Source: Metasolibacillus sp.
GTDB lineage: Bacteria; Bacillota; Bacilli; Bacillales_A; Planococcaceae
DNA: 63,075 bases
NCBI RefSeq assembly: GCF_025291715.1
Contig: NZ_JAMBIZ010000020.1
Coordinates: 1-63,075 of the forward strand
Direction: 5' to 3'
Below, piece by piece: positions 4,135-32,226 of the stretch. Within the stretch, counting starts at the first letter, position 1, and each line of letters starts with the position of its first letter. The notes beneath the pieces are model-generated. The model had not been told where the DNA came from. It was given only the letters and a program-made list of their open reading frames with translations, and did no database searches. A program made the position numbers and the translations under genes.

Positions 4135-4521
4135 ATGGAAAAAGTATGGAGTATACGTTTAATTCGTTTAGCAGCAATTTTTGGTTTAATAGGAGCAGTA
4201 TTAGGCTCTGATATGGCAGGTTCGGGCAACTACCAATTTAGAGCAATTCATGCACATATGCTTGTTGTAGGCTGGCTATCTGTTTTTGCATGGGGATTAT
4301 TTTATAAGATTTATCGTGTTCGTGTGAAAAAGTTGGTATCTTTACATGGTTGGATGACCGTGATAGGTTCAGTCGGTTTAACAATCGGCATGCTATTTTA
4401 CAATGTCAATCCACTGCACATGAATGAAGTGTTCACATTAATTACGTTTATTGCAGGAGGCACTGCCCTATTAGTAAGCTTTTCGTTGTTTATTGCAATT
4501 ACATTTTTGCTGGAGGAGTGA
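4135..4521 (+). CDS. Small four-helix membrane protein
   Basis: Hydrophobic protein of 128 residues with four predicted membrane helices. The second begins with the stretch IHAHMLVVGWLSVFAWG, which recalls helix sequences in subunit I of haem-copper oxidases and NO reductases (His-x-His before a Gly-Trp helix), but the protein is far too short to be an oxidase. The RBS is inside the terminator hairpin just upstream, so expression may depend on read-through from the two-component operon. Function unknown; it is confidently protein-coding but not identified. Confidence 0.75.
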   Translation: MEKVWSIRLIRLAAIFGLIGAVLGSDMAGSGNYQFRAIHAHMLVVGWLSVFAWGLFYKIYRVRVKKLVSLHGWMTVIGSVGLTIGMLFYNVNPLHMNEVFTLITFIAGGTALLVSFSLFIAITFLLEE

Positions 4522-4561
4522 ATTGTGTGAGAATTGTGTGTGTGCCTGGCACCCACACAAT
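4521..4561 (+). repeat. Dispersed palindromic repeat, copy A
   Basis: An AATTGTGTG unit (4521-4529) is followed by a 29-nt palindrome at 4533-4561: ATTGTGTG, t, GTGCC, t, GGCAC, c, CACACAAT. It lies 19 nt upstream of the menE ribosome binding site. It is the most complete of five copies in the window (the others are near 13.5, 25.55, 31.07 and 31.92 kb). Confidence 0.85.
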
Positions 4562-13493: not shown

Positions 13494-13532
13494 AATTGTG
13501 TGAAAATTGTGTGTGTGCCTGGCACCGAAACA
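13494..13532 (+). repeat. Dispersed palindromic repeat, copy B
   Basis: AATTGTGTG, a short spacer, then ATTGTGTGTGTGCCTGGCAC, the same left half as copy A. The right arm is degenerate (CCGAAACAA rather than CCACACAAT). It is located between the germination operon and the pckA terminator. Confidence 0.8.
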
Positions 13533-25549: not shown

Positions 25550-25588
25550 ATTGTGTGGGTGCCAGGCACACACACAATTCTGACAATT
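25550..25588 (-). repeat. Dispersed palindromic repeat, copy C
   Basis: On the minus strand it reads AATTGTCAG (25588-25580), then a spacer base and the full 29-nt palindrome (25578-25550) identical to copy A. It occupies the divergent cydD/cydA promoter region. Confidence 0.85.
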
Positions 25589-29930: not shown

Positions 29931-31103
29931 ATGCCAAGACAGGTATGGTATTTAGTCATCGGGATGTTTTTAAACACAGTAGGTAGCTCCTTTTTATGGC
30001 CTTTAAATGCTATATACATACACCATCATCTAGGAAAAACGTTGACGATTGCGGGTTTTGTGTTAATGCTTAATTCATTAGCGGCGGTCGTTGGTAATTT
30101 ATTAGGTGGCTATTTGTTTGATAAAATTGGTGGCTTTAAAACAATTGTGATTGGTGTCACATTAAATATAGGCGCATTAAGCTTATTGATGTTTTGGCAT
30201 GATTGGTGGCCTTACGTTATTTTGTTAACGGTTATCGGCTTTAGTGGAGGGGTAGTTTTTCCTGCAATGTATGCGTTGATAGGTGCTGCGTGGCCAGAAG
30301 GTGGGCGCAAAGCGTTCAATACGTTATTTTTATCGAATAATGTTGGGGTAGCGATTGGTCCTGCACTAGCAGGCTTTATCGCAGATATGAATTTTGAATA
30401 TGTTTTTAAAGCGAATTTCTTTACTTATTTAATTTTCTTCCTGCTTGTTGTCACAACATATAAACGCTTTGATACGAAAAGTATGGCACCGAAAAATGTA
30501 CTTGCAGAAAGAGGGGGCAAGGAGTCGAAGGCAGGACTTTATGCATTACTTACTTTGTGTCTCGCTTTAGTATTATGCTGGATGTCGTATTCACAATGGA
30601 GTGCGACGATTTCTTCTTACACACAAGGCTTAGGCATGTCGCTCTCACAATATAGTGTGATTTGGACGATCAACGGCTTGCTCGTTGTCGGTTTCCAGCC
30701 AGTCATTCGTCCACTCGTTCGACGTTGGGAGAAGAAGCTCAAGCATCAGCTCGCATTGGGACTTGTCTTAATGTCATTCTCCTTCTGTATCGTGGCGGTT
30801 GCAGAGGAATTCACAATGTTCGCGGCAGCAATGGTCATTTTAACATTAGGGGAAGTATTTTTCACACCTATTATTCCGACAATTGCTAATCAACTCGCCC
30901 CGAAAGGTCGACAAGGCTTTTACCAAGGCATTGTCAATAGTGCCACGACAATTGGACGAATGATTGGTCCACTCTTTGGTGGGATGATGGTCGATATATT
31001 TGATATGCAGACATTGATGTGGAGTGTCGTTGTGCTGCTGCTTGTAGCAATTATCCCTGCATGTGCCTGGCACACGAACAATAAAGAAAATTCAGAAAAC
31101 TAA
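29931..31103 (+). CDS. MFS drug/metabolite exporter
   Basis: Twelve-helix major facilitator transporter of 390 residues. The motif A region is GGYLFDKIGGFKT after helix 2, and GPALAGF belongs to the helix 5 motif C, typical of drug:H+ antiporters. Start after GGAGAGAGG. The last codons, from about 31062, coincide with a degenerate copy of the GTGCCTGGCAC repeat, so the hydrophilic tail ACAWHTNNKENSEN may be repeat-derived. Substrate unknown. Confidence 0.88.
   Translation: MPRQVWYLVIGMFLNTVGSSFLWPLNAIYIHHHLGKTLTIAGFVLMLNSLAAVVGNLLGGYLFDKIGGFKTIVIGVTLNIGALSLLMFWHDWWPYVILLTVIGFSGGVVFPAMYALIGAAWPEGGRKAFNTLFLSNNVGVAIGPALAGFIADMNFEYVFKANFFTYLIFFLLVVTTYKRFDTKSMAPKNVLAERGGKESKAGLYALLTLCLALVLCWMSYSQWSATISSYTQGLGMSLSQYSVIWTINGLLVVGFQPVIRPLVRRWEKKLKHQLALGLVLMSFSFCIVAVAEEFTMFAAAMVILTLGEVFFTPIIPTIANQLAPKGRQGFYQGIVNSATTIGRMIGPLFGGMMVDIFDMQTLMWSVVVLLLVAIIPACAWHTNNKENSEN
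31062..31093 (-). repeat. Dispersed palindromic repeat, copy E (degenerate)
   Basis: Contains the exact 11-base core GTGCCTGGCAC (31063-31073) followed by ACGAACAATAAAGAAAATT, which aligns with ACACACAATTCTGACAATT of copy C. It is therefore an inverted copy relative to copy D. It overlaps the end of the MFS gene, and the RAYT gene ends about 70 bases further on. Confidence 0.65.
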
Positions 31104-31117
31104 ATACAATTCAATCG

Positions 31118-31155
31118 AAAAGCTAGTGTCACAACGAGTGAGGACACTAGCTTTT
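31118..31155. terminator. Terminator of the MFS gene
   Basis: 13-bp perfect stem AAAAGCTAGTGTC/GACACTAGCTTTT (31118-31130 with 31143-31155), flanked by A- and T-rich sequence and shared with the convergent RAYT gene. Confidence 0.82.
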
Positions 31156-31163
31156 GTTATAGC

Positions 31164-31736
31164 TCAAGTCAATTGCAAATCATAATCATCCTCACAATGC
31201 ATTAAATAGAGCTCTAGGGTAGCGTATCTGGAATGAGGTAAATAGGATAGAAGTGAATTTTTATGCAAAAAATTAAATGGTGCTGGAACGTTATGGTAGT
31301 AATAATAGAAAGAGCTATAAGGATAAAGAGCTAGGGCCTCTACCAAGGGGATAGTGGTATTGATTGGATTACGGTGAATATAGCGGCTAACAGCGATAAT
31401 ATCGAGGGCTGAAGGAACAATATCTGAAAAAAACCTTTTTTCATAGAGGTGACCAGTGTAGTCATATCTCTTCTTGAAATAATCACTATAACGACGATTA
31501 ATCATCGCCATGATTTTGCTGTGGGAAGCATGAGAAGAGCGCAGTAATAAATGATAATGATTTGGCATAATGCAAAAAGCAATAATGGAAAATTGATATT
31601 TTTGATACGTGTACTCTAAAATTCGCAAGAAAGCTTGATAGTCAGCATGATGTAAAAAGATTGTTTGTCGATTATTTCCACGCATCACGATATGAAAATA
31701 GTGATGCGGCGACCAAAGACGATGTTTTCTAGGCAT
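31164..31736 (-). CDS. REP-associated tyrosine transposase (RAYT, Y1_Tnp)
   Basis: Single-strand DNA HUH transposase relative of 190 residues. The metal-binding HUH motif is HYH at 60-62 (IMPNHYHLLLRSS); the conserved start HHYFHIVMRGNNRQTIF and the segment RRYSDYFKKRYDYTGHLYEK with candidate catalytic tyrosines follow, and YIHRNPI is a further family block. RAYTs act on palindromic REP repeats instead of moving like classical IS200. ATG 31736 follows AAAGGAGGG; a longer frame to 31823 lacks an RBS. Repeat copies in inverted orientation lie on both sides (31.07 and 31.92 kb), and more are scattered through the window. Confidence 0.9.
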   Translation of the reverse strand: MPRKHRLWSPHHYFHIVMRGNNRQTIFLHHADYQAFLRILEYTYQKYQFSIIAFCIMPNHYHLLLRSSHASHSKIMAMINRRYSDYFKKRYDYTGHLYEKRFFSDIVPSALDIIAVSRYIHRNPINTTIPLVEALALYPYSSFYYYYHNVPAPFNFLHKNSLLSYLPHSRYATLELYLMHCEDDYDLQLT

Positions 31737-31909
31737 AGCAGCCCTCCTTTTATATGAATTGAATATAGTGTAAAAACAATGATAAATCTTGTCAAATGGC
31801 TCAAGAAAGCACTTATTGTGCAAAATGTTTGAAATTAGAAATTTGACTGTGAAAAACGAATGAAATTTGTCATTTGAATAGTAAAGTGCATAAAAAATTT
31901 TTTTTCATG

Positions 31910-31943
31910 AATTGTGTGGAAATTGTGTGTGTGCCTGGCACGC
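31910..31943 (+). repeat. Dispersed palindromic repeat, copy D
   Basis: AATTGTGTG, GA, then AATTGTGTGTGTGCCTGGCAC (core complete to 31941), with the right arm replaced by an A-run. It lies 174 bases upstream of the RAYT start and 11 bases before the -35 of the leuS leader. Confidence 0.8.
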
Positions 31944-31989: not shown

Positions 31990-32226
31990 ATTATATACAA
32001 CGACTATGACAAGGAGTAGTAAATTTCGACACTTTTTAGAGAGTTAGCGGTTGGTGTAAGCTAACAGGTGAACAAATTGAACTCGCCTTTGAGTTTGCTT
32101 TTAGATACTAAAAGCCGTGTTTTCGCGTTAAGAAGCTGGAGCTGAGTGCAGTGTCACTAATTTGGGTGGTACCGCGGGAGTCAAATATACTCTCGTCCCT
32201 TTCTACGGAAGGGGGCGAGTTTTTTA
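31990..32226 (+). ncRNA. Leucine T-box riboswitch
   Basis: tRNA-sensing leader of leuS. The universal T-box sequence GGGTGGTACCGCGGG is at 32164-32178. A Leu specifier codon CTC is visible at 32082-32084, in GAACTCGCC. The terminator is CTCGTCCCTT paired with AAGGGGGCGAG (32192-32201 with 32209-32219), followed by seven Ts. Uncharged tRNA-Leu should stabilise the antiterminator and allow transcription. Confidence 0.95.

Follow-up and report, generated by a model that had tools for sequence, protein, structure and literature searches.

Does the small gene at positions 31164-31736 of a Metasolibacillus contig, which encodes a protein of the RAYT type (REP-associated tyrosine transposase; REP, repetitive extragenic palindrome), belong together with the short palindromes found on either side of it? 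The window analysed here is a stretch of 63,075 nucleotides from Metasolibacillus sp. (assembly GCF_025291715.1, contig NZ_JAMBIZ010000020.1). Overall, the locus is very probably a REP-RAYT-REP unit (REPtron) of the Bacillota, consisting of a domesticated RAYT and its own REP family, of which the enzyme would be the cleaving and mobilising agent. The original prediction had linked enzyme and repeats by position. This link is now supported by stems that change in a largely compensatory manner at RAYT flanks, by dispersed copies that match them, and by mutated repeats in a congener devoid of the gene.

The unit and its immediate surroundings are composed as follows.

31164-31736, minus strand: RAYT gene (TnpA-REP-like Y1/HUH protein of 190 aa), ATG at 31736, motifs NHYH and YIHRNP.
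31910-31941, plus strand: upstream REP, with the gene-facing guide AATTGTGTGT at 31921-31930, a second AATTGTGTG at 31910-31918 and the core GTGCCTGGCAC at 31931-31941.
31063-31095, minus strand: downstream REP, inverted, with its core at 31063-31073 and a degenerate guide at 31074-31095; it overlaps the 3′ end of the next feature.
29931-31103, plus strand: open reading frame (ORF) of a transporter of the major facilitator superfamily (MFS) type, named by reading of the sequence; its 3′ end contains the downstream REP core.
31997-32203, plus strand: T-box leader of leuS (gene name by reading), Rfam RF00230, 125.5 bits, on the far side of the unit.

Both 11-mers lie where they had been predicted, one at 31063-31073, 90 bases from the end of the stop codon, and one at 31931-31941, 194 bases from the ATG (the predicted distance was about 195). 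They read alike on the plus strand, the core being palindromic save for its centre. Inversion is visible in the flanks: AATTGTGTGGAAATTGTGTGT faces the gene at the upstream copy and a degenerate reverse-strand guide faces it at the downstream copy. On both sides, the hairpin is distal and the guide is turned toward the gene. The predicted bracketing by inverted copies therefore stands, with the correction that the 31063 copy lies inside the last codons of the MFS ORF and has no AATT guide. The neighbours of the RAYT gene are the MFS ORF and leuS, with no tnpB.

The identification of the gene as a RAYT was confirmed. The 190-aa protein matches Pfam Y1_Tnp (64.8 bits, 1e-17) and carries the HUH motif NHYH and the tyrosine motif YIHRNP, of class Y---NP. 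Its AlphaFold2 model (mean pLDDT 90.4) has as best fold match in the PDB entry 4ER8, a RAYT-REP complex (E 5.9e-7, TM 0.65/0.74), followed in the list by the IS608 and ISDra2 transposases. We take 4ER8 to be the E. coli RAYT protein. A PDB search by sequence with the same protein returned no match. Both HUH histidines, the tyrosine and the NP pair are unchanged across 30 relatives, and 30 of 30 relatives match the NCBIfam model REP_Tyr_transpos (NF047646) at E<=0.001. A profile search of the whole genome gave one Y1_Tnp match, the gene at 31164-31736 itself; some genomes of the family have 2-4 RAYT matches each. Purifying selection is indicated by dN/dS values of 0.05-0.18 in five of six pairs, the sixth being not computable, and a Metasolibacillus meyeri protein is 86% identical to that of the window. 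The locus thus displays traits of a RAYT-REP system, namely a class 2 Y1/HUH protein (Y---NP) encoded by a single-copy gene that keeps its position and is under purifying selection.

The repeat is dispersed in many genomic copies. The source genome (G000; 3.83 Mb, 83 contigs) contains 58 exact GTGCCTGGCAC cores (31 and 27 by strand), as compared to none for the reversed pattern used as a control; genome-wide enrichment had been set beforehand as a test of the proposal. In the window, five exact cores account for ten two-strand matches with at most one mismatch. The expected number was 0.61, and none of 100 shuffles reached ten. Alignment of the copies showed that the palindrome is merely the 3′ end of an element in which a guide precedes it. 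AATT occurs within 13 nt of the core, on one or both sides, in 54 of the 58 copies, versus 24% of 11,000 positions drawn at random from these loci. The 63 guide-bearing sides give the consensus AATTGTKTGN directly before the stem, and behind it a hairpin GTGC-CWG-GCAC with a 4-bp core stem and a CWG triloop whose central base is T on 49 sides and A on 14. Because these sides were picked by AATT, positions -10 to -7 were selected for; positions -6, -5, -3 and -2 were free of this selection and hold 1.5-1.9 bits each. On 40 of the 63 sides, a second AATTG is found further upstream. GT[AG]G stands at the hairpin foot on only four, so that the family departs from canonical GTAG REPs. Symmetric doublets are also present, with two cores in opposite orientation whose starts are 34 nt apart. 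Four copies lack the AATT guide. One is the downstream window copy; the other three (L014, L024, L028), situated in open frames and devoid of repeat-like flanks, seem to be due to chance.

Folding of the core gives a stem with a CTG/CAG triloop. A 5-bp stem over a single nucleotide was rejected, as such a loop cannot close. Free-energy z-scores were -1.8 and -1.3, with 7 and 24 of 200 shuffles folding equally well. Since the fold energy is weak as compared to shuffles, the case for the hairpin rests on covariation.

Covariation was examined at 30 RAYT loci, the best-scoring among the matches in 134 genomes, with a pattern that leaves the third and fourth stem positions free to mismatch. At least one guide-plus-hairpin element was found near 25 of the 30 genes, and on both sides of ten. 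Upstream elements lie on the strand opposite to the gene in 33 of 39 cases, and downstream elements on the sense strand in 10 of 13. Both variable stem pairs are Watson-Crick in 42 of the 52 elements, whereas shuffling gave a mean of 22.8 and a maximum of 36 in 5000 trials; as there are several elements per locus, the 52 are non-independent and do not count events. The stems are of types GTGCC/GGCAC, GTACC/GGTAC and GTGAC/GTCAC, and the triloops are CTG (29), CAG (20) and CGG (3). In one RAYT clade (98/96 support), five of six RAYTs have GTACC flanks. Among dispersed copies with listed places, GTACC stems dominate genome G233 (117 copies), and GTGAC stems dominate G099 (9) and G190 (10). Copy counts were 52 in G236, 28 in G237, 27 in G239, 25 in G246 and 43 in G249, the stem types of these not being among the listed places. 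Overall, the repeat co-varies with its RAYT. The stem changes are largely compensatory, with pairing favoured but not absolute. In G233, many of the listed copies stand in series at 34-, 44- or 45-nt spacing, for instance at G233:C25:177082-177496, and resemble arrays of bacterial interspersed mosaic elements (BIMEs).

The co-occurrence of gene and repeat was surveyed in 261 genomes of the family. A search at the level of the order yielded the identical set of genomes, and beyond the family the distribution is covered by five distant relatives. With a match at E<=0.001 as the definition, 134 of the 261 genomes are RAYT-positive and 127 are RAYT-negative. At least ten copies of the strict guide-plus-hairpin pattern were present in 21 of 134 RAYT-positive genomes versus 0 of 127 RAYT-negative ones. 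Equal repeat abundance in relatives without a RAYT, which would have spoken against the prediction, was thus not seen. As RAYT flanks showed other stems, a generic pattern that demands no complementarity was added; at least ten copies were then found in 37 of 134 versus 2 of 127 genomes, and the reversed generic pattern never exceeded three per genome. For the same reason, we dropped the idea that the strict-pattern zeros in many distant RAYT-positive genomes signal a failure of the link, because flanks there carry other stems.

In the two closest genera, the counts are as follows. Within Metasolibacillus (g1), strict copies number 66, 62, 47 and 54 in the four RAYT-positive genomes and 1 in the sole RAYT-negative one. 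In genus g8 (32 genomes, perhaps Lysinibacillus), the eight genomes with a full gene have 14-168 strict copies. The remaining genomes have none, including G061 with its weak partial RAYT match, with the exception of G035, which has five. In a leuS tree of 36 of the 37 genomes of both genera (G033 left out), the eight full-gene g8 genomes form one clade (90/81), and three changes suffice over the 36 genomes. The extreme Fisher values obtained for these genera (12/12 versus 0/25) were not relied on since the tree needs just these three changes.

The RAYT gene adjoins leuS in the eight full-gene g8 genomes and in the four RAYT-positive Metasolibacillus genomes, as judged by coordinates, six of the eight having also been read. 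In the 23 g8 loci examined that lack the gene, no RAYT stands beside leuS. In G035, which lacks the gene, a lone GTGCCAGGCAC hairpin stands at the RAYT site and may be read as a scar of RAYT loss. The RAYT-negative congener is G004. Its match to the MFS ORF shares 89.7% identity over 389 aa; no RAYT gene stands between MFS and leuS, and a few bases after the MFS stop comes the sequence that precedes the leuS T-box. An absence running from hairpin to hairpin was considered and rejected, as homology extends across the 31063 site and for about 35 nt beyond it, within the 3′ end of the MFS ORF. The absent block can be read as about 31110-31943; it is possible that the downstream core originated, or was converted, at its present position.

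Of four repeat sites examined in G004, three are mutated. At two sites aligned with G001, the cores of G004 are altered, for example GTGCTAGACAT as compared to GTGCCAGGCAC in G001; at the first of these, one arm is mutated in G001 too. The third site has a copy reading GTATCTGGCAC, and at the fourth, a doublet, both cores are intact. Small as it is, this sample of four sites says that G004 formerly had the repeats, and suggests that they decay without the RAYT gene.

To follow the tempo of spread, the 58 cores of the source genome, grouped in 55 loci, were compared with G002 (48 listed cores and 7 further places, out of 57 cores). A partner was found for 50 of the 55 loci; all 50 have exact cores, and 47 align over at least 95%. 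Exact cores are also present in G002 for L036 and L058, and a one-base variant for L054. For L029 (G000:C26:130), near a contig end, similarity with G002 starts just past the hairpin core and the upstream part differs. In place of the L025 doublet (G000:C20:12957-13001), G002 has a transposon-like insert of about 1.78 kb (L160:10545-12329). The insert ends in AGGCTGGGACA and TGTCCCAGCCT, its edges match the doublet within a base or two, and it contains a 587-aa open frame, presumably an IS1182-type transposase. Three G002 loci are without a G000 partner; two correspond to one-base core variants in G000 and one was not placed. In G001 (20 regions, 44 cores), 13 of the 20 loci compared share flanks with a REP locus of G000. 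The copies of the window that lie away from the unit are the following.

4521-4552, plus strand: dispersed REP copy.
13494-13525, plus strand: dispersed REP copy.
25559-25588, minus strand: dispersed REP copy.

Of the five Metasolibacillus genomes, G000, G002 and G003 have the 25559 copy, and G001 and G004 do not. At the 13494 copy, the aligned stretch of G001, G003 and G004 has no REP and its flanks have diverged. Nearly fixed sites and partial sharing between species indicate that the spread is slow, as expected of a domesticated enzyme.

From these data, the following mechanism can be proposed. The single-copy HUH/Y1 enzyme, fixed beside leuS, would recognise the GTGC-CWG-GCAC hairpin and its AATTGTKTGN guide as single-stranded DNA. 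Its tyrosine would cut and rejoin at guide and hairpin, the guide presumably picking the cleavage site. Cutting and rejoining would slowly have spread repeat copies through the genome, and would keep the family alive. Strand-specific binding, cleavage and copying of the repeats by the RAYT are what we infer here.

Several observations weigh against a REP-RAYT-REP unit as just described. The window protein scores 65.4 bits with NF047646, below the cut-off of 80. Five of the 30 RAYT loci have no element of the pattern and only ten are flanked on both sides; in 10 of the 52 elements, a variable pair is not Watson-Crick. Five g8 genomes (G043, G051, G057, G058, G060) contain, beside the complementary type, many listed copies whose fourth stem pair is mismatched (GTGACTGGCAC or similar); counts in these genomes rise from 59-168 strict to 152-274 generic copies. 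G216 carries both GTGCC and GTGAC types, which counts against a strict stem rule. Fewer than ten generic copies are found in 97 of the 134 RAYT-positive genomes, whose RAYTs may use other repeats or none, while the RAYT-negative genomes G175 and G256 have 26 and 19. The association in the two closest genera amounts to about three events. Finally, the sites are almost all fixed when G000 and G002 are compared, with no recent movement seen, and no clean target-site junction was obtained, the aligned empty sites having diverged flanks.

The last points bear on the alternative that survives best, a relic pair: the enzyme would formerly have spread the repeats and now serve another host function, the conservation of the repeats reflecting recent common descent. 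Two strains of the species indeed show no movement, bar one replaced and one missing site, and the strong purifying selection on the gene fits a host function as well. However, orthologous repeats are mutated in G004 and mostly intact in its RAYT-positive sisters (at few sites, and with one G001 arm mutated), and the stems change along with the enzyme clade. We regard a relic pair as unlikely, though as the alternative to be taken most seriously.

Much less probable is an ordinary IS200/IS605 insertion sequence, with the gene as its transposase and the repeats as its ends and as derivatives resembling miniature inverted-repeat transposable elements. IS608 and ISDra2, which follow 4ER8 in the fold list, belong to the same superfamily. 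They share the HUH/Y1 fold and have subterminal hairpins with a 5′ guide (PMC8266576), and hairpins do stand on the gene flanks. In contrast, the present gene has a single genomic match instead of multiple mobile copies, keeps a constant place beside leuS in four Metasolibacillus and all eight full-gene g8 genomes, and lies between the MFS ORF and leuS without tnpB. Its tyrosine motif, YIHRNP, is of the Y---NP and not the Y---Q class (motif classes in PMC6006769), and the flanking repeats are inverted. Least probable, by a narrow step, is a regulatory role of the repeats in the host, as hairpins that serve as terminators or stabilise RNA and are close to the RAYT by coincidence. By eye, several copies are found a little before or past what appear to be gene ends, and REPs elsewhere affect transcripts (PMC8266576). 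However, for two of the 58 copies in a 3.8-Mb genome to fall within about 200 nt of a single gene, the chance is estimated at about 1e-5; the arrangement recurs in several genera, copies are rare in RAYT-negative genomes and mutated in G004, and the guide is conserved and one-sided.

The unit can be compared with known systems. According to PMC2817692, RAYTs always lie between two inverted REPs, and orthologues keep their place while the REPs change and stay palindromic. This is the pattern seen here. Like the proteobacterial RAYT/REP/BIME/REPIN systems (E. coli, group 2; Stenotrophomonas and Pseudomonas, group 3), the present one has a Y1/HUH enzyme, usually single-copy, with Y---NP and the 4ER8 fold, flanking hairpins that are inverted and have a guide at one foot, copies dispersed in the genome, doublets, and an orthologous gene position with changes that preserve the palindrome (PMC2817692, PMC8266576). 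It differs by its guide AATTGTKTGN, 4-bp stem, CWG triloop, 58 cores and Bacillota host. E. coli K12 has about six hundred REPs, and proteobacterial RAYTs cleave in a strand-specific manner, loop bases being critical in group 3 (PMC8266576).

Other Y1 families were also compared. TIRYTs are RAYT-like genes between dispersed terminal inverted repeats, 20 of 26 falling in subclass 2.1 (PMC3733652, PMC6006769). They resemble the window unit in having a Y1 gene between non-GTAG inverted repeats and moderately abundant dispersed families in some species; their flanking repeats mostly share GGGGWSAS, which window-type elements, with their hairpin and one-foot guide, do not contain. By motif alone, the protein resembles TnpA-Y1 subclass 2.1 (Bertels group 1), with which it shares NH[YF]H, a Y[IV]HLNP-like motif and SS in the tail (PMC6006769, Table 1). 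That subclass is described as having no REP-like sequences, a median length of 238 aa and an extra C-terminal domain (PMC6006769), whereas the present unit does have REP-like elements and its protein is 190 aa long. REP-like hairpins without GT[AG]G are also described for subclass 2.6 and class 3 (mostly Bacteroidetes; Planctomycetes and others) (PMC6006769). These belong to other phyla, and the likeness is one of description.

The words Firmicutes, Bacillus and Bacilli are absent from the main text of PMC6006769, as are Firmicutes and Bacillus from the portions of the main texts of PMC2817692 and PMC8049555 used here. Among the matches listed in the literature searches, with Bertels et al. 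2017 outside their scope, no paper on a Bacillota RAYT-REP system was found; a search by repeat sequence matched 33 papers, and of the 20 listed none concerns such a bacterial repeat by title. Within that scope, the repeat can be called new, as had been claimed. The data support an extension of the RAYT-REP system, best known from Proteobacteria, to the Bacillota with a different guide and stem. More tentatively, and with the odds somewhat against so broad a statement, group-1-like Y1 enzymes reported as REP-less may include a large Bacillota lineage with its own AATTGTKTGN/CWG REPs, whose stems drift largely by compensation and in which enzyme loss starts measurable repeat decay. If so, these genomes would show, as a natural time series, how REPs arise, are maintained and disappear. 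RAYT-REP systems clearly exemplify, in bacteria, a domesticated transposase whose substrates have been kept; the experiments described in PMC8266576 were made on two groups of Proteobacteria. With its different guide, minimal hairpin and naturally varying stems, a Bacillota lineage would offer matched enzyme-substrate pairs for recognition tests. Whether repeat maintenance needs the enzyme could be tested in the RAYT-negative congener and, if parsimony is followed, perhaps in two further cases of loss.

The position of the repeats relative to genes was also considered. Open frames of at least 400 nt contain 23 of the 58 cores as compared to 578 of 2200 positions taken at random; frames that stop at the hairpin count as well, which makes the test blunt, and an intergenic preference of the cores was not shown by this comparison. 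Where g8 genomes carry the gene, a repeat seems to form the end of the ORF before the RAYT. By eye, the hairpin appears to lie in the last codons of an open frame, with the guide supplying the stop, at L012, L034, L039, L045 and L051 as well as at 31063-31103. Repeat insertions at gene ends may thus remodel C-termini.

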